Positions 16,195 to 58,008 of a stretch of 64,000 bases of DNA are shown here, piece by piece. Within the stretch, counting starts at the first letter, position 1, and each line of letters begins with the position of its first letter. Source of the stretch: Hyphomonas sp. (GTDB lineage: Bacteria; Pseudomonadota; Alphaproteobacteria; Caulobacterales; Hyphomonadaceae); assembly GCA_017792365.1 (NCBI GenBank), contig CP051229.1, positions 2,418,001 to 2,482,000 of the forward strand, given 5' to 3'. Under the pieces are notes generated by a model. The model saw only the letters and a list, made by a program, of their open reading frames with translations, was not told where the DNA came from and did not search any database. A program made the translations under genes and the position numbers.

Positions 16195-17940
16195 TCAGGC
16201 CATGTCGCGCGGACAAGCGTCCTCGCTGATCGTATCTCCGTACGCCCAGCTCGCTGGCGCCTGCAACGTGTCCTGCTCCGACAGCCAGGCGAGCACCGGG
16301 ATCTGGTCTTCCAGCTCATCATAGCGCTCGCCCGCCCAGCCTTCCCGAAAGAACTTGAGCATCAGATACATCTGCACGGCATAAGGCGTCCGATACTTCG
16401 GCCTGATCTCGAGCCGGACCACCGTCTCCTTGCCGCCTTCGCCAAGCGTCAGCACGGTCTCACCCGTCTCGAAATCCGTCGCAATCGATCCATGCTCGAA
16501 TTCAAATCGCGCTGACCGCTGCGCGCGGTCCACCGGCATGTACTTACCTGCAACCAGCCTGACCCGCGCGCCATCCCCCGATGTCAGCGTTGTATCGATC
16601 AGCGTCGTCGCATCCTGCACCACGCTGCTATCGGATGAGCCGAGCTTCACCGCCTCCGGTCTCCACTTCGAAAGCGGTCCGCTAACCTTCTCAAGCAGCA
16701 TGAACAGGTGAACGCCAGTCTCGAACAGCAGCCCGCCCTCCTCGGCCTGTTCCGTCCAGGCCCGGCGAGAAGGGCTTGGGGACCGCGCGTCGGTCTCCAA
16801 CAGGTATAGTTCGCCGGAGTTGAGGTTTCCCAGCCGCGCGACGAGGTTTTCAGGCGATGGCAGGTTGCCAGACACGCGGATGAGCGGCGCGTGCGCTTCC
16901 ACCCGGTCAAACACCCATCTCAGAGTCAGCGCTTTCTCGAGGCTGTAATAACTGAGCGCGAACCCGTTCGAGAACCATGCTGCAGCCTTCGCCTGAAGAT
17001 CGGCGATCTCTGTCGGCCTTGCGACGATCGGCTTTTCCACCGCAAATCGCAGCCCGTTTTCGAAACAGTGGCGGATGTAGTCAGCATGCGCGCCGGTTGA
17101 GGTCGCAATGTAGACGGGATGGCCCTCGGCCGAGGCCCTCGCCTTGATGGCGGTTTCAGGCATCAGGTGAACATCGCTGGCCTTGATCGGTCCGGCAGCA
17201 TCAGACCCGGGCAGCGCATGCAGCCGGTAGCGGTCAGTGCCAATCCGCAATGCGCGCAGCGCCGGAATGACCCGCCTCGACACAACATCCCCGGCGCCGA
17301 TGACCGAGAATTGCGGGAACGTCTTGAACTCGGTCGATGGATACATCTGACGCAGATTGCCGATCACTATGATGGTGTAGATCAGGCCGAGCGCCCGCAG
17401 CGGGTGCGCCAGCCGGTCTGGAAGATCCGACCCCCCCACGAAGATCGCCTGCGCCAACTCTCCCGCCGGCTGGTCGAACAAGAGGCCCAGATTCAGAATC
17501 TGGACGGCAAGCACGACGGGGAACAGCACGAAGTACTCCGAGCGGTGATACAGCGTGTAGCCCGGCTCAGCGAAGTTCCGGATGAACAGGTAATACAGCG
17601 CCCAGAGCCCGGTCTCGAAGACCATCAGATACGCGAACGCGTGCAACGGGTAGATGTGCCAGCCTGCAAACAGCCAGCGTTCGTCGAACAATCCTTCAGA
17701 GCCGACATACAGAGCCAGCGACAGCCCCAGCACAGCCAGGAAATAGACTTCCGTATAAAGCGCATGGAAGTTGGGGCGCCGCGACCGGTGGCTGACGCTC
17801 CACCTCTGCTTGAACTTGCGGTGGCAGAGTTTCACCCATTGTAGCGGACTGAACAGTCTCGCGATGGCAAACAGGTGAAAGACGATGAAGGCGAGGATCG
17901 AGGGCTTGTCACCCCAGTACCAGACAGGCCGCGAAGGCAT
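16195..17940 (-). CDS. Membrane protein fused to a Gfo/Idh/MocA oxidoreductase domain
   Basis: A 581-residue two-part protein. Residues 1-200 hold about five hydrophobic segments (near 14-30, 59-80, 99-121, 135-155 and 180-196), with basic loops after the first. A Rossmann domain then begins at residue 211 ('FSVIGAGDVVSRRVIPAL'). It carries the Gfo/Idh/MocA signature 'FAVEKPIVARPTE', whose Lys is normally catalytic, and a long C-terminal alpha/beta domain. The soluble half would be an NAD(P)-dependent sugar or polyol oxidoreductase tethered to the membrane. I do not recognise the membrane half. ATG 17940 is preferred; GTG 17982 is an in-frame alternative. The frame is open further upstream through the tRNA and is not coding there. 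Confidence 0.78.
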   Translation of the reverse strand: MPSRPVWYWGDKPSILAFIVFHLFAIARLFSPLQWVKLCHRKFKQRWSVSHRSRRPNFHALYTEVYFLAVLGLSLALYVGSEGLFDERWLFAGWHIYPLHAFAYLMVFETGLWALYYLFIRNFAEPGYTLYHRSEYFVLFPVVLAVQILNLGLLFDQPAGELAQAIFVGGSDLPDRLAHPLRALGLIYTIIVIGNLRQMYPSTEFKTFPQFSVIGAGDVVSRRVIPALRALRIGTDRYRLHALPGSDAAGPIKASDVHLMPETAIKARASAEGHPVYIATSTGAHADYIRHCFENGLRFAVEKPIVARPTEIADLQAKAAAWFSNGFALSYYSLEKALTLRWVFDRVEAHAPLIRVSGNLPSPENLVARLGNLNSGELYLLETDARSPSPSRRAWTEQAEEGGLLFETGVHLFMLLEKVSGPLSKWRPEAVKLGSSDSSVVQDATTLIDTTLTSGDGARVRLVAGKYMPVDRAQRSARFEFEHGSIATDFETGETVLTLGEGGKETVVRLEIRPKYRTPYAVQMYLMLKFFREGWAGERYDELEDQIPVLAWLSEQDTLQAPASWAYGDTISEDACPRDMA

Positions 17941-33019: not shown

Positions 33020-33835
33020 ATGCCAAAATTCAAGCTAGCCACCTGGAACATCAATTCCGTGCGGCTGCGCATCGACCGCGTCACCGATTTCATCAGACGG
33101 GAAAAGCCCGACGTCCTGTGCCTGCAGGAGATCAAGTGCCTCGAGGACCAGTTCCCGGCCAAGGCCCTGAAGGCGGCCGGCATGAAGCACATGGTCGTCC
33201 ACGGACAGAAAGGCATGCACGGCACCGCCATCGTCTCGCGCCTGCCGCTCGAACCCGCTGACGGCCCGCCCTTCTGCATGCACGGCCACGCCCGCTGCAC
33301 GGCGGTCACCGTCGCCGGACACGAGATTCAGAATCTCTACGTCCCCGCCGGCGCCGACATCCCCGACCCCGTCCTCAACGACAAGTTCGCCCACAAGCTC
33401 GACTTCATCGAGCGCATGCGCAGCCACTACCAGTCGCGCGCAAAGAAGCGCTCAGCCCCTCCCCTCATCGTGGTCGGCGACCTCAACATCGCACCGGAGG
33501 AACACGACGTCTGGTCCCACCGCCAGCTCCTGAAAGTCGTCTCCCACACGCCCGTCGAAACCGACGGCATGAAAGCCATCATCAAGGACGGCAGGTTCAC
33601 CGACATCGCGCGCGCCAAACATCCGCCCGAAGACAAGCTCTACACCTGGTGGTCCTACCGCTCGCCCGACTGGCGGAAGAACAACCGCGGCCGCCGCCTG
33701 GACCACATCTGGTCCGACCACCGCGCCACCCCCCACGTCGACATCAAGAGCTACGAGATCCACACCACCGAACGCGACGGCGACAAACCCTCAGACCATG
33801 TCCCCGTGACGGTGAAGATCGCGGCGGCCGGTTAG
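33020..33835 (+). CDS. xthA: Exodeoxyribonuclease III
   Basis: A 271-residue Xth-type AP endonuclease/3'-5' exonuclease for base-excision repair. Metal and catalytic residues are in 'ATWNINSVRLRI' (Asn), 'LCLQEIKCLEDQFP' (Glu), 'VVGDLNIAPEEHDVW' (Asp, Asn), 'GRRLDHIWSD' (Asp) and the C-terminal 'KPSDHVPVTV' (Asp-His). All are intact. ATG 33020 gives the family start. Its stop overlaps the convergent Rieske oxygenase gene by 4 bp. Confidence 0.96.
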   Translation: MPKFKLATWNINSVRLRIDRVTDFIRREKPDVLCLQEIKCLEDQFPAKALKAAGMKHMVVHGQKGMHGTAIVSRLPLEPADGPPFCMHGHARCTAVTVAGHEIQNLYVPAGADIPDPVLNDKFAHKLDFIERMRSHYQSRAKKRSAPPLIVVGDLNIAPEEHDVWSHRQLLKVVSHTPVETDGMKAIIKDGRFTDIARAKHPPEDKLYTWWSYRSPDWRKNNRGRRLDHIWSDHRATPHVDIKSYEIHTTERDGDKPSDHVPVTVKIAAAG

Positions 33836-46146: not shown

Positions 46147-46799
46147 GATTGCTCCGCCCGCTTGCTGAGATTTGAGAGGATCAGGACCTGCCCATCCGGC
46201 CCCGAAAGGCTGGAACGCCTCTCAACATCAAATGCCCTGGTTTCCCGAGCATGAACAATTTCCTCGTCCGCAGACCGCCCCTTCAACAAAAGCGCGCGGC
46301 CGCTCGGCTTCAGCCAGAGATCCAGCATCGGCAGCAGACGGGCGACCGGAGCCAACGCCCTCGCCGTCACGACATCAACCGGCCCCTCCGGAGCATCCTC
46401 GATTCTCTGATTCGAGACCATAGCGTTGAGCCCAAGGCGTCTGACGGCGTCTTCCAGGAACTGCGCCTTACGCACACTTTTCTCGACGAGGGTCACCGCC
46501 ACGTCCCGATCCGCCAGTGCGCACGCCAGGATGACCCCGGGGAACCCCCCTCCGGTTCCAAGGTCCGCCAGCGACCGGACATCTTCGCCCATCAGGGGAA
46601 CCAGCTGCATTGAGTCCAGAATGTGGCGTCGCCAGATGTGCCGTCCTTCGTTCGGGCCGATCACGTTGTATCGCTCCCGCCACTCGTCGAGAATGTCCAG
46701 GAAGGCCTCGACCCGGCCGATCGTTTCACGTGAAACACCCGTGAGGCGGACGACATCGTCCCGCCCGAACCCGTCCTCGTCCTGCGGAGCGTAGCTCAT
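46137..46799 (-). CDS. rsmG: 16S rRNA (guanine-527-N7) methyltransferase RsmG (GidB)
   Basis: A 220-residue SAM methyltransferase that makes m7G527 in 16S rRNA. Family motifs are 'WRRHILDSMQLVPLM', 'LADLGTGGGFPGVILACALA' (SAM loop) and 'VTARALAPVARLL'. Loss is known to give low-level streptomycin resistance. A parS site lies inside its 5' part (46722-46737). The start overlaps the mnmG stop by 4 nt. Confidence 0.96.
   Translation of the reverse strand: MSYAPQDEDGFGRDDVVRLTGVSRETIGRVEAFLDILDEWRERYNVIGPNEGRHIWRRHILDSMQLVPLMGEDVRSLADLGTGGGFPGVILACALADRDVAVTLVEKSVRKAQFLEDAVRRLGLNAMVSNQRIEDAPEGPVDVVTARALAPVARLLPMLDLWLKPSGRALLLKGRSADEEIVHARETRAFDVERRSSLSGPDGQVLILSNLSKRAEQSCG
46722..46737. promoter_or_regulatory. 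parS site 1 (inside rsmG)
   Basis: CGTTTCACGTGAAACA matches the bacterial parS consensus TGTTTCACGTGAAACA at 15 of 16 positions, with the palindromic core complete. Confidence 0.9.
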
Positions 46800-48664
46800 G
46801 CGCGCGACTTCGCCGGGGCCTTCGCCATCGCCCGGACATATCCGAGCAACGCGGTGATTGCGCCCGGGGTCATCCCCTCGATGCGCGACGCCTGGCCGAA
46901 CGTGGCCGGCCGCACGGACGCTAGCTTGTCGCGGGCCTCATTCGAAAGGCCGCCGACGGCCGCGTAATCGAGGTCCGCCGGAATCCGCAAATCTTCATCC
47001 CGGCGGAATGCGCGAATGTCCGCTTCCTGCCGGTCCAGGTACCCCGAATAGGTCGACTCGATTTCCATCCGCTCGCGTACCGCGGGAGCCAGCAACCCGA
47101 GCGGAGGCCAGATACCAGCCAGCGTCTCGAACCCGATCTCCGGATAGGCCAGCAGCTCCATCGCCGACCGTCGCCGTCCATCCCGGTTGACCTGCATCCC
47201 AGCCGCCCGCGCCTCGTTCGGCGTAAGGCTCAATTCGCCCATCAGGTGCCGGGCGTCCGACATCGCCGACTGTTTCACGTGAAACACCGATGCGCGCCGA
47301 GACCCCACACCCCGCCTCGATCCCCAAACCGGTCAGGCGCTCATCCGCATTGTCGGCCCTCAGCGTCAGCCGATACTCCGCCCGCGATGTGAACATGCGA
47401 TAGGGCTCACTCGCGCCCCGGGTCACCAGGTCGTCGATCATCACCCCAATATACGCCTGCGACCGGTCGAGAATTAGCGGCTCCGACCCGGCGGACATGC
47501 GCGCGGCGTTCAGCCCGGCGACCAGTCCCTGGCCGGCCGCCTCCTCATATCCCGTCGTCCCATTGATCTGACCAGCCAGGAACAAGCCCGGCATCTGTTT
47601 GACTTGGAGGTCGGGCGTCAGTTCCCGAGGGTCCACATAGTCGTACTCGATCGCATATCCGAACCGCCGGATCGCCACCGCTTCCAGCCCCGGGATCTTG
47701 CGGATGAACGCCTCCTGCACCCCCTCCGGCAGGGACGTGGATATCCCGTTCGGATAGATCGTGTCGTCGTCCAGCCCTTCGGGCTCAAGGAAGATCTGGT
47801 GCCGGTCCCGGTCCGCAAACCGGGAGACCTTGTCCTCGATCGAGGGGCAATAGCGCGGTCCCCGCCCGGAGATCGCGCCCGAGTAGACCGCCGACTGGTT
47901 GAGGTTCTGGGCGATCACGGCATGGGCCTCAGGCGTCGTCCAAGTGATCCCGCAGGCGATCTGGGGCGTCGTGATCCGATCGGTCATGAAGGAGAACGGA
48001 ATCGGCTCGTCATCCGCCGGCTGCATATCCAGCCCCTGCCAATCGATGGTCGAGCCGTCCAGCCGCGCCGGCGTCCCGGTCTTCAACCGCCCCATCCGAA
48101 GCCCGCTTGCGTAGAGCCGATCCGACAAACCGATCGCCGGCGCCTCGCCAACCCGGCCAGCGGGGATGCGCTTGTCTCCGATATGGATGACCCCTTCAGG
48201 AAGGTCCCGGTCGTGACCACCACCGCCCCGGCCCGCCACCGGGCGCCCGACGCCCCGATCACGCCGACCACCCGGTTTCCCTCGACAATCAGGTCCTCGA
48301 CCCCATCCTCGATGATCGTCAAATTGGCCTGCTCAGCGAGCATCTCCTGCACGGCCTGCCGATAGAGCTTCCGATCCGCCTGCGTCCTGGGTCCGCGAAC
48401 CGCCGGCCCCTTCGACCGGTTCAGCAGCCTGAACTGGATGCCGCCGCGGTCAGCCGCGCGGCCCATCAGACCGTCCAGCGCATCGACCTCGCGGACCAGG
48501 TGACCCTTGCCCAATCCGCCGATGGCCGGGTTGCACGACATCTCGCCAATGGTCACCGCCTTGTGCGTGACCAGCGCCGTCCGCGCGCCAAAGCGCGCAG
48601 CGGCGGCGGCCGCCTCGGCGCCTGCGTGTCCACCGCCAACAACGATTACGTCGAACTGGTCCAT
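46796..48664 (-). CDS. mnmG: tRNA uridine carboxymethylaminomethyl enzyme MnmG (GidA), two compensating frameshifts
   Basis: Reads in three frames. 48664 to about 48195 gives '[20 protein letters not shown]' (FAD) to '[11 protein letters not shown]'. After one base is added to the run 48191-48194 it continues '[20 protein letters not shown]' to '[18 protein letters not shown]'. Removing one base from 47303-47306 leads to '[17 protein letters not shown]' and the C-terminal helical domain to 46796. The sum is a normal 622-residue MnmG. With MnmE it makes cmnm5U34 in tRNAs. Both shifts are in 4-base G/C runs, so sequence error is likely. Contains parS site 2. Confidence 0.88.
47271..47286. promoter_or_regulatory. 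parS site 2 (inside mnmG)
   Basis: TGTTTCACGTGAAACA is an exact match to the consensus. It lies inside the mnmG coding region and encodes 'FHVK' there. Confidence 0.95.
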
Positions 48665-48732
48665 ACGACCCTCTGCTTCTGCCGCCCATTTAAGGCAGCC
48701 AGAGGCGTCAGTCGAGCGATCCTGTGATGCGA

Positions 48733-48748
48733 TGTTTCACGTGAAACA
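48733..48748. promoter_or_regulatory. parS site 3 (mnmG-mnmE gap)
   Basis: TGTTTCACGTGAAACA is an exact consensus parS site, the only one of the five in non-coding sequence. The 170-bp gap holds nothing else I can assign. Confidence 0.95.
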
Positions 48749-48834
48749 TTTGGGCGCGAAGAGTCATTTGCCTCTTTGGCCGACTCCCGCAAGGCCGAGC
48801 CAGGTCTCAGCCGGCCAGCCTGCCAGCCGGTCTG

Positions 48835-50208
48835 TCACTTACCTATGCAGAAGTCCGAGAAGATCCGGTCGAGCAGGTCCTCGACGTCAACCTTACCAGT
48901 CACCTGGCCCAGGGCCCGCGCCGCCATCCTGACATCCTCGCCGACCAGCTCCGGCCCCAAGCCATCCTGAAATGCGCGCCGCGCGGACTGAAGATGGTGG
49001 AGCGCCTGTGACGTCAGCGACTGGTGCCGCGCGCGCGTAACGATTGGCGCTTCCGATGAGGACAGCTTCCGGACCACTTCCTGTTCGAGCGCCAAGAGCA
49101 GCGCCGGGATCCCATCGCCTGTCTCGGCGCTGATCGCAGACGTGGCGTCGTCAGTCATTCGCCCAGCCGCCAGGTCGGTCTTGTTCCAGACAACCAGATC
49201 GCTCTCGGCGAAGGATGTTTCACGTGAAACCCTTTCTAGCGTGTCGGCGTCATCCGTCACGTCGAGAAGCCAGATCCTGAGGTCCGCTGACTGGGCGCGG
49301 TCCAGCGCCCGCCGCACCCCTTCAGCCTCGATCTGGTCCACCGCCTCCCTCAGCCCCGCCGTGTCCGCCACCCATACCGGGAACCCGCCAAGCACCATGC
49401 GGACCTCCACGACATCGCGTGTGGTCCCAGCGATCGGAGACACAATCGCCGCCTCGCGGCCGGCCAGCTGGTTCAGCAGGCTCGACTTGCCCGCATTGGG
49501 CTTGCCGAGGATGGCGATGCGAAAGCCCTCACGCACGGATCGATTTCGCTCCCAGTCTGAGAGCGCGGCCTCGATTTCTGTCTGCAGGCGCGCCAAGGGT
49601 TCCAGCGACCGTCTGGCGATCTGCTCGGGAACATCCGACTCATCGGGAAAATCAATCGCAGCCTCAAGAGCGGCCATGGCCTCGATCAGCCGTTCCCGCC
49701 ACGACTCGAAACGATTGCCGGCTTCGCCTTGGAGTAGGCGCAGGGCCTGAGCGCGCTGACCTTCGGTTTCGGCGTCGATCAGGTCGGCGAGGCCCTCAGC
49801 CTGGGTCAGGTCAAGCCGCCCGTTCTCGAAGGCGCGCCGGGTGAATTCGCCGGGCCCGGCCACACGGCAGAGACCGGTTTCAATGCAGGCCCGCAGCATC
49901 GCCTCCACATTCGCGGCGCCGCCATGGATCTGAAGCTCGACAACATCTTCGCCCGTGAAGCTGTTTGGGCCGGGCATGAAGATGACCAGCGCCTCGTCGA
50001 GGAAGGCGCCATTGCCGGGGGCGTAGAGGGGGCGCAGGGTGGCGTGACGGGGCGCAAGCGCCGGTGACTGTTTCACGTGAAACAGTCTGTGCGCCGTCTC
50101 CAGCGACGCCGGACCGGACAGCCGCACCACCGCGACGCCGGCGCGCCCGGCGCCGCTGGCGAGGGCGACGATCGTCTCGCCGCGATCGGTAGAGTGGCCT
50201 GACGGCAT
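48835..50208 (-). CDS. mnmE: tRNA modification GTPase MnmE (TrmE)
   Basis: A 457-residue enzyme. Order: an N-terminal folate-binding domain ('TIVALASGAGRAGVAVVRLS' to 'FTRRAFENGRLDLTQAEGLA'), a helical domain with an inserted G domain (G1 'GKPNAGKSSLLNQLAG', G2 'GTTRD', G4 'NKTDL') and the C-terminal 'FCIGK' with its catalytic Cys. Two parS sites are embedded in it and are read as amino acids ('FHVK', 'VSRET'). ATG 50208 fits the family start. Confidence 0.97.
   Translation of the reverse strand: MPSGHSTDRGETIVALASGAGRAGVAVVRLSGPASLETAHRLFHVKQSPALAPRHATLRPLYAPGNGAFLDEALVIFMPGPNSFTGEDVVELQIHGGAANVEAMLRACIETGLCRVAGPGEFTRRAFENGRLDLTQAEGLADLIDAETEGQRAQALRLLQGEAGNRFESWRERLIEAMAALEAAIDFPDESDVPEQIARRSLEPLARLQTEIEAALSDWERNRSVREGFRIAILGKPNAGKSSLLNQLAGREAAIVSPIAGTTRDVVEVRMVLGGFPVWVADTAGLREAVDQIEAEGVRRALDRAQSADLRIWLLDVTDDADTLERVSRETSFAESDLVVWNKTDLAAGRMTDDATSAISAETGDGIPALLLALEQEVVRKLSSSEAPIVTRARHQSLTSQALHHLQSARRAFQDGLGPELVGEDVRMAARALGQVTGKVDVEDLLDRIFSDFCIGK
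49216..49231. promoter_or_regulatory. parS site 4 (inside mnmE)
   Basis: TGTTTCACGTGAAACC differs from the consensus only at the last base. Confidence 0.9.
50069..50084. promoter_or_regulatory. parS site 5 (inside mnmE, near its start)
   Basis: TGTTTCACGTGAAACA is an exact consensus match. Confidence 0.95.
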
Positions 50209-54134: not shown

Positions 54135-55174
54135 TGACCCGGTTTCCTCAGACCCGCGCCAGCCGGCGATTGGGGCACTCCCCACTCTGCCGGACAGATC
54201 CGGCCTCCGCAATGCGATCGCGGGTCACCGACGGACCCATCCGCCGTGGCGTCCTGAACGATGTCGGCAAGCGTCTCGATGTAGCCTTCCGCTACCCCAG
54301 GGCAGGCGCGCGGATATAGGCGGTCGCGTTTTCTTCGTCTGCGATGAGCTTGTACTCGTGATCGAGCTCGACGAGCGTTTCGATGTGTTCCGAGACGAAA
54401 GCGATCGGGGCGATCATGATCGCCTTGCCGTCGCGAGCCGCCTGGCGGATGGAATCATCGGTCGCCGGCCCGATCCATTTCAGCGGGCCGACGCGCGACT
54501 GATAGCAGATCTCGACTTCCCATTCCGCTGGCAGAAATTCACGCAGCGCCGCAGTCGTCTGCTCGACCTGCCACTGATAGGGATCGCCGTCGGCGACGAC
54601 CTGTTCCGGCAGTCCGTGTGCGGAAAGCAGCAGACGGACATTCTCCGGCCGACCGGCTTTCTCCCACGTCTCCAGGATCAACGCTGCATGGGCGCGAATG
54701 AACTTGTCCGCTGTGGGATAGCAACAGACGGTGATGGCTTCATCGCCCCCGGCATCGCGCCACGACTTGACGGACGACGCGGTCGTAGTGGTCGAGAACT
54801 GCGGATAGAGCGGCAGCAACACTACCCGGTCCGCGCCCCATTCCCGGACCCCGCGCACAGCCTGCTTCGCAAACGGCGACCAGTACCTCATGCAGATGAA
54901 CGACCGAGCGGACACGCCTCGCGACGAAAGCGCGGCATCCAGCGCGGCGGCCTGTTTCTTGGTCTCAGGGAGCACCCCCGCCCATTCGGGCGTAGTTTTC
55001 CTTTGCTGAAGGCGCGCGGGTCCTCGAGATGAAGCGGGACAGCATCCAGCGGATCGGGCCTGGCGCGCGTATGATCGCCGGGTCAGAGAACAGGTTCTGG
55101 AGAAACGGCTGAACATCGTCGGGACCATCCGGTCCGCCCAGATTGAACAGCACTACTGCGATTTTCTCGCTCAT
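54131..55174 (-). CDS. hemH: Ferrochelatase HemH (two compensating frameshifts)
   Basis: Inserts Fe2+ into protoporphyrin IX. The first segment (55174 to about 54980) reads 'VVLFNLGGPDGPDDVQPFL' to 'ENYARMGGG'. Removing one base from the C run 54975-54979 continues 'VLPETKKQAAALDAALSSRG' through 'LLLSAHGLPEQVVADGDPY' (catalytic His) to 'AYIRAPALG'. There a second indel (run 54295-54298, one base missing) would extend it through 'VAEGYIETLADIVQDA' to a Cys-containing C-terminus, stopping at 54131 in ATGA overlap with hemJ. The total is 347 residues, a normal HemH length. The start overlaps the hemE stop. Confidence 0.85.
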
Positions 55175-56211
55175 TGAGCGCCCTGGCGCACGACTTTCAG
55201 CACGCGTTCGACGTTCTCGATCGGCGTATCCGGCAGAACGCCGTGGCCGAGATTGAAGATATGGGGACGGCCGTTCAGTCCATCGAGGATCTGACGCACA
55301 CGCGCTTCAAGGCCGTCACCGCCAGCGAGCAACCGCAACGGATCCAGATTGCCCTGGACCGGAAATCCCTTCGGCAAGGTCTTATTCACCCAGTTCAGTG
55401 ACGCAGCCGTATCGAGGCCCACCGCATCCACTCCCGTTCGTTCAACGTAGGGCGCCAACAACGATCCGCAGCCTCTGGGAAATCCAATGATCGGCAGATC
55501 GACGCCCAACTCCCTGAGCCGGGATACGAGCGCCTTCGTCGGCTGGATCACCCACCGATCGAAGCCGTCCTCCGGGAGGCCTTCAGCCCAGCTCTCGAAC
55601 AGCATCAGGGCGTGTGCGCCGGCCTTCGCCTGCATTGCGAGATAATGGGCGGAGGCCTCGACCAGCTGCGCCAGGATCGCATCAAGCTCTTGCGGATTCT
55701 CGTAGCCGAACTGGCGCGGAAAGGTCTTGTCGGTGCCGCCTTTGCCTTCGATCGCATAGATCGCCACCGTCCACGGCGCACCCGCAAAGCCGATCAGCGT
55801 CGTCTTCTCGCTCAGGCGGGGACTCACCCGTTCAACGGTCTCACCGACCGGCGCGAGCTTCGCCATCACCTTTTCCAGCGGCTCGCGATCAAGTTCCGCA
55901 GCGCTTCTGATCGGTTCGACACGCGGCCCCTCGCCAGCCACGAATTCAACCTTCCGCCCCATCGCATCCAGAATGAGAAGAATGTCGGCAAACAGGATCG
56001 CGCCGTCCATGTCGTAGCGGCGGATCGGCTGCAGTGTCGCCTCTGCTGCAAGGGAAGGGGAATAGCAGAAGTCTAGGAAGTCCTTCGCCCGCGCGCGAAG
56101 CTCCAGATACTCGGGCAAGTGCCGTCCAGCCTGACGCATCATCCAGACAGGAGCACGATCCTGTCTTTCACCGCGAAGGACGTTGAGAAGAGGTTTGCCT
56201 TTGAAGGCCAA
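55171..56211 (-). CDS. hemE: Uroporphyrinogen decarboxylase
   Basis: A 346-residue enzyme making coproporphyrinogen III. The N-terminal signature 'PVWMMRQAGRHLPEY' is at 21-35 with the substrate Arg, and 'FAGAPWTVAIYAIEGKGG' and 'FPRGCG' follow. The only possible start is TTG at 56211: an in-frame TGA lies two codons upstream and no other initiation codon precedes the signature. A weak AGG is upstream. The weak start and the adjacent origin-like region suggest low or cell-cycle-gated expression. First gene of hemE-hemH-hemJ-rho. Confidence 0.94.
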   Translation of the reverse strand: MAFKGKPLLNVLRGERQDRAPVWMMRQAGRHLPEYLELRARAKDFLDFCYSPSLAAEATLQPIRRYDMDGAILFADILLILDAMGRKVEFVAGEGPRVEPIRSAAELDREPLEKVMAKLAPVGETVERVSPRLSEKTTLIGFAGAPWTVAIYAIEGKGGTDKTFPRQFGYENPQELDAILAQLVEASAHYLAMQAKAGAHALMLFESWAEGLPEDGFDRWVIQPTKALVSRLRELGVDLPIIGFPRGCGSLLAPYVERTGVDAVGLDTAASLNWVNKTLPKGFPVQGNLDPLRLLAGGDGLEARVRQILDGLNGRPHIFNLGHGVLPDTPIENVERVLKVVRQGAQ

Positions 56212-56415
56212 GCGTCACCTATCGATCTGCACACTCCTTCATTCTTGAATCTGATTCTTAGAAAGAAAGAGTCAGTGGTAGATACACGTTTGATAAGTGG
56301 AGGCGAGTCGTCCTCCACCAAAGAGTCACAACCGCGCATCGGAGAATCCCGATCTGTTCTCAGCGTGCATCTGGCACGCGCCGGGTCCTCGTCCTGAGCC
56401 GCGAACGGGTTTGCT

Positions 56416-56517
56416 GGAGTCGAGTCTGAATCCGAACGCGGCGGCGGCAATCTGTGAAAAACCTTGTGCCCAATCACGGCTGGGGATCGAGATGTGGATG
56501 GATTCTGACTCGAATCC
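56416..56517. repeat. Inverted repeat of GANTC triplets inside the putative origin
   Basis: Left arm GGAGTCGAGTCTGAATCC (56416-56433) and right arm GGATTCTGACTCGAATCC (56500-56517) are inverted repeats matching at 16 of 18 positions. Each holds three GANTC sites spaced 5-6 bp, and the arms are 66 bp apart. Confidence 0.75.
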
Positions 56518-56528
56518 GGGCCTTCCGC

Positions 56529-56537
56529 TTGTCCACA
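56529..56537 (+). promoter_or_regulatory. DnaA-box-like site
   Basis: TTGTCCACA, one mismatch from TTATCCACA, lies 60 bp before the ppsR start within the putative origin. Confidence 0.5.
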
Positions 56538-56596
56538 CTTCGCTCCCAGCGTTATTGATCGAGCCTCCGCGGCCAGACCGCGCCTGAGGCATCGCA

Positions 56597-57415
56597 ATGG
56601 CGTTCCAGATCTTCTTCAATGTCCACCTTGTCTCGGACTCGACCGGCGAGACATTGAATGCGGTCATGCGTGCGGCCAGCGCCCAGTTCGACAACATCGC
56701 CCCGCTCGAACACACCTATTATCTTGTAAGGTCGCCGCGGCAGCTTGAGCGGGTCATTCAGGAAATTGAAGCGGCGCCGGGGATTGTCCTGTGCACGATC
56801 AGCGATGTGACGCTGAGGCAGCGGCTGGAAGATTGCTGCCGCGATCTCGGCGCGCCGGTCCTTGCGGTGATCGATCCGGCCGTTGACGTGCTCAGCCGCT
56901 ATCTCGGCCTGCAATCCTCGCACAAGGTGGCGGCGCAGCACGGCCTCGACGCCGAATACTTTGCACGCATGGAAGCCATCAATTTCGCCTTGCAACATGA
57001 TGACGGGCAATCGGTCGAAGGGTTGCGGGAGGCGGATGTCGTGCTGGTTGGCGTCAGCCGAACGTCAAAGACGCCGACCTGTGTCTATCTTGGCAATCGC
57101 GGGGTGAAGGCGGGAAACATACCGATCGTTCCCGGCGTCGAGCTTCCGGACGTCCTCGACGGGGAGCGGGCGCCGCTCGTGATCGGGCTCAAGATCTCAC
57201 CCGACCGGCTGGTCCAGATCAGGCGGCAACGCCTGCTTGCCCTGAACGAGTCATCCGAAACGTCCTACGCCGACGAAGCCGCGGTCAGGGAGGAGACGAC
57301 CCACGCCAATCGTCTTTATGTCCGCAAGAAATGGCCGACCATTGATGTCAGTCGCCGCTCCGTCGAGGAGACTGCAGCGGCCATTCTCAACATCATCCAG
57401 GACCATAGATCGTGA
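56597..57415 (+). CDS. PEP synthase/PPDK regulatory bifunctional kinase-pyrophosphorylase (DUF299)
   Basis: A 272-residue DUF299 protein that phosphorylates and dephosphorylates a Thr of PEP synthase or pyruvate phosphate dikinase, using ADP and Pi. The P-loop-like motif 'GVSRTSKTPT' is at 152-161, and the N-terminal 'VHLVSDSTGETLNAVMRAA' is the family signature. It is the RP001-type gene flanking the Caulobacter origin. ATGA overlap with maf. Confidence 0.93.
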   Translation: MAFQIFFNVHLVSDSTGETLNAVMRAASAQFDNIAPLEHTYYLVRSPRQLERVIQEIEAAPGIVLCTISDVTLRQRLEDCCRDLGAPVLAVIDPAVDVLSRYLGLQSSHKVAAQHGLDAEYFARMEAINFALQHDDGQSVEGLREADVVLVGVSRTSKTPTCVYLGNRGVKAGNIPIVPGVELPDVLDGERAPLVIGLKISPDRLVQIRRQRLLALNESSETSYADEAAVREETTHANRLYVRKKWPTIDVSRRSVEETAAAILNIIQDHRS

Positions 57416-58008
57416 CCGACCGCCTGATCCTCGCCTCGAAAAGCGCGGCGCGCGCCAACGTGCTGCGCGGCAGCGGCATCGAGTTTGAACAGATCGTCGC
57501 TGGCGTAGACGAAGAGGCGATCAAGGCGGGCCTGCGGGCCGAAGGCGCCTCGCCGCAGAAACAGGCGGAGCTCCTGGCGGAAACGAAGGCGGTCAAGGTA
57601 TCGCGGGGCCGGCGCGAAATTGTCCTTGGCGCAGATCAGGTTCTCGACCTTGATGGCGAGGCCTTCGACAAACCCGCAGACCTAGATGCCGCGCGCGAGC
57701 AATTGATCATGCTGCGCGGCCGCCAGCACAAGCTGCAGACAGCGCTGGTTGCATGCATCGAGGGTGCGCCGGTCTGGCGGCACGTTGCGCAGCCCAGCCT
57801 GACCATGCGGAATTTCTCTGACGGTTTTCTGCAGGATTATCTCGAACGCGAAGGCATGGATCTCTGCAGCACCGTTGGGGGCTACAAGCTCGAGGGCAGG
57901 GGCGCGCAGCTCTTCGACCGCATTGAAGGCGATTTCTTCAGCATTCTCGGGTTACCTTTGCTGCCGCTTCTCGCCTGGTTGAGGGACCGCAACTCGATAT
58001 CGACATGA
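57412..58008 (+). CDS. maf: Maf-family nucleotide pyrophosphatase
   Basis: A 198-residue Maf protein that hydrolyses non-canonical or canonical nucleoside triphosphates. It has 'LILASKSAARANVLRGSGI' at the start, 'VDEEAIKA' and 'IVLGADQVLDLDGEAFDKP', and a C-terminal 'GGYKLEGRGAQLFDRIEGD'. The second-half Glu/Lys set is intact. It is coupled by 4-nt overlaps to ppsR and aroE. Confidence 0.93.
   Translation: MTDRLILASKSAARANVLRGSGIEFEQIVAGVDEEAIKAGLRAEGASPQKQAELLAETKAVKVSRGRREIVLGADQVLDLDGEAFDKPADLDAAREQLIMLRGRQHKLQTALVACIEGAPVWRHVAQPSLTMRNFSDGFLQDYLEREGMDLCSTVGGYKLEGRGAQLFDRIEGDFFSILGLPLLPLLAWLRDRNSIST

Follow-up and report, generated by a model that had tools for sequence, protein, structure and literature searches.

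Is the short intergenic gap between hemE and a ppsR-type gene the chromosomal replication origin of its host, and are the GANTC sites crowded into that gap a selected part of the origin that senses its methylation? Both questions are raised by a stretch of 64,000 nucleotides (the window, that is, the whole stretch of DNA that was analyzed), which corresponds to positions 2418001 to 2482000 of a genome that consists of one contig of 3,398,407 bases. We take DUF299 and RP001 to be names of the ppsR-type gene at 56597-57415.

Probable location of the chromosomal origin

The main features of the region are the following.

55171-56211, minus strand: hemE, uroporphyrinogen decarboxylase (TIGR01464, 376 bits, cut-off 303)
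56212-56596, no strand: 385-bp hemE/ppsR intergenic gap, the putative origin of chromosomal replication
56597-57415, plus strand: ppsR / DUF299 (RP001-type) gene (NF003742/PRK05339, 321.5 bits, cut-off 225)
46722-50084, no strand: parS-like sites, exact at 47271, 48733, and 50069, with one mismatch at 46722 and 49216

The initial annotation placed the origin in the hemE/ppsR gap. This assignment is supported by a switch of GC skew, by the parS sites, by hemE/DUF299 synteny, and by marker frequency near hemE in the relative H. neptunium, and the gap is very probably a chromosomal replication origin of the hemE-linked alphaproteobacterial type. GC skew, computed over the window in 4-kb bins, was negative as far as 56000 and positive in both bins thereafter, with the sign switching between the 52-56 and the 56-60 kb bins. 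Skew was also computed for 40 stretches (11.8% of the genome) in addition to the window and was negative in 17 of the 19 stretches of the left arm and positive in 14 of the 21 stretches of the right arm, leaving 9 exceptions among the 40. Thus, the skew analysis that had been proposed as a check, run here on sampled stretches, points to the gap. The parS-like sites are located 6 to 10 kb from the gap and number five for 0.01 expected, with a consensus that we take to be that of parS. The dnaA gene is located ~76 kb away and is therefore no marker of the position of the origin. The gap has the same gene neighbors, hemE and RP001/DUF299, as Cori of Caulobacter crescentus, and it resembles Cori and other hemE-linked origins by its DnaA-box-like and W-box-like sequences. 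hemE is also reported beside the origin of H. neptunium, a member of the same family in which marker frequency peaks close to that gene and in which no clear origin had emerged from skew, from the dnaA gene, or from DnaA sites (PMC6650430). Binding of CtrA beside the H. neptunium origin has been described, and the same paper lists ChIP-seq reads for GcrA and CtrA at this origin among its data (S4 Data; PMC7200025).

Among 105 Hyphomonadaceae genomes, two had no ppsR match and four (G042, G072, G090, and G101) lacked a gap complete on a single contig, so that 99 gaps were available. hemE adjoined ppsR in 99 of the 103 genomes with ppsR, the other four being cut by contig ends; one of these gaps (G042) was later read across the start of the record and enters none of the group counts. 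The length of the gap was 347 to 421 bp in 98 of the 99 genomes and 769 bp in the remaining one (G067), which was omitted from the shuffle, palindrome, CtrA-box, conservation, and flank tests (98 gaps). The 769-bp gap (locus L099) comes from a Hyphomonas-type MAG, has a GC content of 64%, and is bordered by a hemE match starting further off; an insertion or an assembly fault is possible.

The GC content of the window gap is 57%, and that of the sampled genome stretches is 58 to 66%. A+T content is highest at 56232-56291, where it reaches 63% over 60 bp; the A+T-rich stretch of the initial annotation was therefore found again, at a value close to the 65% given there.

Number and density of GANTC sites

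GANTC occurs in the gap at positions 56247, 56253, 56269, 56305, 56323, 56344, 56417, 56422, 56428, 56501, 56507, and 56512. These 12 sites span 270 bp (56247-56516), as in the initial count, which our recount reproduced. The accompanying estimate of about one site expected by chance was a 1.6- to 3-fold underestimate, since shuffling of the gap gave 1.6 sites (base shuffles) or 3.2 sites (dinucleotide shuffles). The gap is A+T-richer than the sampled stretches and its dinucleotides alone give ~3 sites, which speaks for a cluster arising by chance or from base composition. However, none of 20,000 dinucleotide shuffles reached 12 sites (maximum, 11), and the sites are conserved within genera (see below). 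Chance and composition are rejected by the shuffles, and the probability that we leave to them is negligible.

The motif is depleted outside the gap, as the whole 64-kb window contains 119 GANTC compared to 348 obtained by dinucleotide shuffles. The density did not exceed 4 sites per 270 bp in the rest of the window, and a sample of 400 kb from this genome, taken as 40 stretches of 10 kb, contained 603 sites (1.5 per kb) with a maximum of 6 per 270 bp. Over the 464 kb examined (~14% of the genome), no other place exceeded half the count of the gap. In a Hyphomonas genome (G076), at most 4 sites per 270 bp were found in 19 10-kb stretches versus 9 at the origin. GANTC was the most enriched of the 16 palindromes of the form XYNY'X' in the gaps of g1, g10, Hyphomonas, Henriciella, Hirschia-type genomes, and g6, and was not so in the gaps of g2, g7, g8, and g9. 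The genus labels of relatives are inferred; g1 is the window's own group and g10 comprises its nearest relatives.

The promoter region and gene start of ctrA (L237:937-1140, at ~1616.7-1616.9 kb of the same genome) were joint second-densest among the sampled places, with 6 sites per 270 bp, four before the gene and two inside it. The same density was observed at L035:1453-1709 (~511.5 kb), where the sites overlap open reading frames; the stretch around this locus has the highest count of the 40 sampled (26 GANTC per 10 kb). In the window, isolated GATTC-N-GAATC pairs with a 6-bp spacing, resembling the pairs of the origin, are present at 17490-17500 and 33325-33335.

Arrangement of the sites in the gap

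The sites and the neighboring sequence elements are arranged as follows.

56247-56257, no strand: GANTC pair GAATC-N-GATTC, 6-bp spacing, on the A+T-rich side; same-spacing pairs aligned in most g10 relatives
56269-56273, no strand: GANTC site
56305-56309, no strand: GANTC site, the only one of the 12 fitting the extended GcrA motif YGAKTCG
56323-56330, plus strand: GANTC followed by ACA (GAGTCACA), a DnaA-box-like fused form common in Hyphomonas
56344-56348, no strand: GANTC site
56416-56433, plus strand: left arm of the inverted repeat of the two GANTC triples (18 nt, 89%, 66 nt between arms)
56417-56432, no strand: GANTC triple GAGTCGAGTC-N-GAATC
56453-56461, minus strand: DnaA-box-like TTTTTCACA, between the triples
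56481-56486, minus strand: W-box-like TCCCCA, between the triples
56493-56501, minus strand: CCATCCACA, DnaA-box-like on inspection by eye, sharing one base with the GATTC at 56501
56500-56517, minus strand: right arm of the inverted repeat of the two GANTC triples
56501-56516, no strand: GANTC triple GATTC-N-GACTCGAATC, repeating the first triple in inverted orientation
56529-56537, plus strand: putative DnaA box TTGTCCACA

The DnaA-box-like sequence and the W-box-like TCCCCA mentioned in the initial annotation were thus both located, the former as TTGTCCACA. Two 9-mers of the gap fit TTNTNCACA and are putative DnaA boxes by sequence match. At the place aligned to TTGTCCACA, the same 9-mer was found in 9 of the 12 g10 gaps, TTTTCCACA in one, and TTGTTAACA in two. 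The arrangement of the two triples as an inverted repeat around W-box-like and DnaA-box-like sites argues for a methylation-sensing cluster.

Neighboring sites were separated by 5 to 6 bp in 5 of 11 cases in the window gap, compared to 0.6 expected by random placement. Such spacings were also in excess in g10 (21/110 versus 5.4 expected), Henriciella (32/122 versus 3.4), and Hyphomonas (24/281 versus 11.1), in counts that include inherited sites many times.

Distribution of the clusters in the Hyphomonadaceae

Dense clusters were present in several clades, with clade-specific layouts; some enzyme-bearing sister genera had none. The mean number of GANTC per gap was 12 in g1 (1 genome), 10.2 in g10 (12 genomes; range, 2 to 14), 8.2 in Hyphomonas (40 genomes; 5 to 10), 5.2 in Henriciella (29 genomes; 3 to 11), 5.0 in Hirschia-type genomes (3), 4 in g8 (1), 3 in g6 (1), 2.3 in g9 (3 genomes; 0 to 4), 1.7 in Ponticaulis-type genomes (7 genomes; 1 to 2), and 1.5 in g2 (2 genomes; 1 to 2). 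All but two of the 52 Hyphomonas and g10 gaps contained 5 to 14 sites. Persistence of the cluster in close relatives, which the initial annotation had singled out for comparison, was therefore observed in 10 of the 12 g10 gaps (9 to 14 sites), the other two containing 2 to 3. In 61 of the 98 family gaps, at most 2 of 200 shuffles reached the observed count. These comprised 38 of 39 gaps in Hyphomonas, 10 of 12 in g10, 10 of 29 in Henriciella, 2 of 3 in Hirschia-type genomes, and the single gap of g1; none of the 14 gaps of g2, g6, g7, g8, and g9 passed this test.

In a tree of hemE (109 rows), obtained by a quick method from one gene and with a long branch for the window's genome, the low-count groups (Ponticaulis-type, g9, g2, and g6) were interspersed among the high-count groups. 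Labeling of the gaps as having at least 6 or fewer than 6 GANTC required 9 changes in this tree, gain and loss being indistinguishable. Together, the tree and the differing layouts suggest that the clusters were repeatedly elaborated in different clades, loss also being compatible with the tree.

Conservation of the recognition sequence

Related gaps were compared in 10 pairs for g1 plus g10, 132 pairs for Hyphomonas, and 40 pairs for Henriciella, which share ancestry and are not independent, so that the figures are descriptive. In this order, the GA and TC letters differed at 0.073, 0.045, and 0.072, and the other columns differed at 0.272, 0.162, and 0.201, corresponding to a divergence of GA/TC 2.8 to 3.7 times lower. 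GANTC was kept as GANTC in 86, 90, and 84% of the cases compared to 42, 51, and 52% for 11 decoy palindromes. The middle N differed at 0.185 in g1 plus g10 and at 0.171 in Hyphomonas, close to the other columns in the latter, and at 0.063 in Henriciella, in which it was as conserved as GA/TC. Thus, conservation of GA/TC combined with drift of N in two of the three groups indicates that the sites are kept as GANTC, and this makes a methylation-sensing function likelier.

The sites could also be an accident of the motif of another protein, an origin binder (such as a drifted DnaA) that prefers sequences containing GANTC, with methylation being incidental. Several longer conserved sequences are in line with this possibility. 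In Hyphomonas, ACA follows 162 of the 640 half-sites of 320 GANTC sites but only 49 of 1255 other TC. The resulting form, GANTCACA, shares its end with the DnaA box, has G as the N letter in 62% of the 162 cases, and, as read by eye, occurs in places aligned where other genera have TCCACA. In the genome of 3,705,021 bp that we take as that of H. neptunium, 5 of the 9 GANTC of the gap are of this form. The tandem GAGTCGAGTC retained both of its N letters in 11 of the 13 aligned g1 plus g10 gaps and in 2 of 3 Hirschia-type gaps, and conservation of N in Henriciella points in the same direction. On the other hand, N drifts in Hyphomonas and in g1 plus g10 while GA/TC does not, and flanks and layouts vary by clade around GANTC as the common core. 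These observations make an accident of another motif quite improbable. The fused form GANTCACA was also considered as a general feature and rejected, since it is strongly enriched in Hyphomonas only. It is infrequent in the clade of the window (1 of 24 half-sites in the window gap and 5 of 244 in g10).

CcrM and other regulators

The genome encodes the CcrM on which the initial annotation depended, a protein of 387 residues with a RAMA domain over the Pfam cut-off and an NF050803 match (E=1e-192; 639 bits) below the model cut-off of 830. It also encodes CtrA (NF045991, above cut-off), GcrA (NF050816, E=1e-58, below the equivalog cut-off and over the Pfam GcrA cut-off), and DnaA (TIGR00362, E=5e-89, below cut-off and over the Pfam Bac_DnaA cut-off). 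No SeqA homologue (PF03925) was detected in this genome by a search for which the E. coli control was positive. A RAMA-type methyltransferase was found in 103 of the 105 family genomes, including the window's own genome and the cluster-free genera, and the presence of the enzyme is therefore no predictor of the cluster.

Although the genome keeps ctrA, the gap contains no match to the CtrA box TTAA-N7-TTAA with up to one mismatch, unlike Cori of Caulobacter, for which five CtrA boxes are reported (PMC8959179). Exact CtrA boxes were absent from 22 of the 98 family gaps, which contained 0 to 12 GANTC, and were present as one or two copies in each of the 12 g10 gaps. A rule pairing the loss of CtrA boxes with the gain of GANTC was not supported, since all g10 gaps keep boxes and 10 of them contain 9 to 14 GANTC.

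A promoter device should be considered at this point, in which GcrA and sigma-70 would read methylation to time the divergent hemE and ppsR genes, or a CcnA-like small RNA, with the origin merely sharing the gap. Promoter GANTC sites of Caulobacter regulate genes through GcrA, and up to six CcrM sites are reported in the 300 bp preceding ctrA in the Caulobacterales (PMC8116508), in keeping with the six sites found in the present genome within 270 bp across the promoter region and start of ctrA. The origin of C. crescentus gives rise to a transcript, the RNA CcnA (PMC8959179). However, the gap has twice as many sites as ctrA, these are scattered across 270 bp, and only one of the 12 fits the GcrA motif YGAKTCG; an array of GcrA sites is rejected on the last ground. 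In addition, a consensus scan of positions 56100-56700 revealed no sigma-70 promoter or terminator, and positions 55000-57600 gave no Rfam match up to E=1, which bears on CcnA only as far as Rfam covers it. We consider a promoter device unlikely, although less so than an accident of another motif.

Proposed role of the sites at the origin

We favor, with moderate confidence, a reading in which the gap is a hemE-linked origin whose 12 GANTC sites form a selected CcrM cluster, as a methylation-sensing part that would help to delay re-initiation. Four elements of this reading are what we infer, namely, methylation of the sites, the timing of CcrM in this organism, a reader protein, and an effect on initiation. 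Before initiation, the GANTC sites of the origin would be fully methylated. Upon firing, they would be the first on the chromosome to become hemimethylated and would remain so the longest, because in relatives that have been studied CcrM does not act before the end of the S phase. The dozen sites would then report that the origin has already fired for most of the cycle. Hemimethylation may change the assembly of proteins on the origin, acting on DnaA directly, on a methyl-sensitive binder such as GcrA, or on another protein; DnaA is a possible reader because the sites touch DnaA-box-like sequences. The frequent GANTCACA form in Hyphomonas also speaks for the favored reading, and its rarity in the window's clade speaks against it. 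Re-initiation would be delayed until CcrM resets methylation. Conservation of the sites in many relatives suggests a part for the mark in deciding when a new round of copying may begin. We know of no protein that reads hemimethylated GANTC at origins. The CcrM of studied relatives is described as active only late, in predivisional cells, leaving origin-near sites hemimethylated longest (PMC3708114, PMC7987155, PMC11514494).

Control of initiation by CcrM has been asked about in C. crescentus because over-expression of the enzyme gives extra chromosomes, as cited in PMC3973325, and the test was negative, since initiation control was reported to be normal without CcrM (PMC3973325), which speaks against a simple carry-over of the E. 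coli model. The extra chromosomes speak for it, as does Agrobacterium, in which over-expression of CcrM led to over-firing of ori2 and did not significantly affect ori1 (PMC11514494); these results concern origins other than the present one. Within the Hyphomonadaceae, close RAMA-bearing genera have no cluster, two g10 gaps have 2 to 3 sites, and the shuffle test is passed by no more than 10 of the 29 Henriciella gaps and not by that of g8; such a function can therefore not be general.

A broader proposal, which is tentative and on balance doubtful, is that CcrM licenses Hyphomonadaceae chromosomes. GANTC sites in or beside DnaA-binding sequences would block the hemimethylated origin until CcrM acts at the end of the S phase. 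Clades would have built such origins independently, through tandem GAGTCGAGTC, GANTC-N-GANTC arrays, or boxes fused as GANTCACA, and the sites would have taken the place of lost CtrA boxes in the organism of the window. If this is true, Proteobacteria would have invented DnaA origins gated by methylation a second time, by an unrelated route, and CcrM licensing might help to explain why DnaA sites missed the H. neptunium origin.

Comparison to other origins rich in methylation sites

Origins rich in methylation sites are known, and the new elements here are a different enzyme, in an origin class for which the C. crescentus test was negative, and the family-wide comparison of GANTC clusters. The oriC of E. 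coli, with Dam, GATC, and SeqA, is similar in having dense adenine-methyltransferase sites, some of which touch DnaA-box-like sequences, CcrM being putatively solitary here. It differs by its enzyme and motif, by the late action of CcrM in studied relatives, by the lack of a SeqA homologue in the present genome, and by an effect that is putative here. Motif clusters of orphan methyltransferases have likewise been reported at orthologous origins, and the survey of orthologous non-coding clusters by Blow 2016 describes four motifs, all at origins (GATC, TTAA, CTCGAG, and haloarchaeal CATG/CTAG), GANTC being absent from those it describes (PMC4752239). The clusters of that survey track the presence of the enzyme (PMC4752239), whereas those of the Hyphomonadaceae do not. 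GANTC is also found in the repABC origin ori2 of Agrobacterium, for which the authors propose that hemimethylation limits re-firing; ori2 is a RepC-type origin (PMC11514494), whereas the window gap is a putative chromosomal origin of the DnaA type. No published report of a GANTC cluster at a Hyphomonadaceae origin was found among the matches listed in the open full-text literature.

The origins of Hyphomonas and g10 would be a fitting place to ask again whether CcrM controls initiation. The present comparison supplies individual sites to mutate, together with natural controls, namely, sister genera in which an enzyme of this kind occurs without a cluster. H. neptunium has been synchronized and genetically tagged (PMC6650430).

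Origin gaps outside the family

The outgroup was drawn from the best 80 of 494 named loci. Three of these had no divergent hemE, and many of the remaining 77 came from the same genomes as the family set. The outgroup consisted of 52 loci (L177 to L229), mostly from Caulobacteraceae, with Parvibaculum, Terricaulis, and others. It included two MAGs labeled Hyphomonadaceae and one labeled Terricaulis; two of these three fall outside the 99 family genomes in the hemE tree, and L177 was not placed. The 52 gaps contained a mean of 2.7 GANTC, compared to 2.2 by shuffles and to 12 in the window gap, with three enriched exceptions, and the Caulobacteraceae gaps counted among these best 80 of 494 loci mostly contained few sites. 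For the Caulobacter origin, "several" GANTC have been mentioned (PMC3973325, citing Shaheen 2009).

The origin gap of a Phenylobacterium MAG (L186) contained 8 GANTC for 1.8 expected, which may represent an independent cluster in the Caulobacteraceae. The gaps of L203 and L205 contained 4 and 5 sites for 1.2 and 1.3 expected, respectively. Finally, two alphaproteobacterial ppsR loci, L160 and L228, were filed under MAGs named "Acidobacteria" and "Bordetella," which are likely to be mislabeled or contaminated bins.
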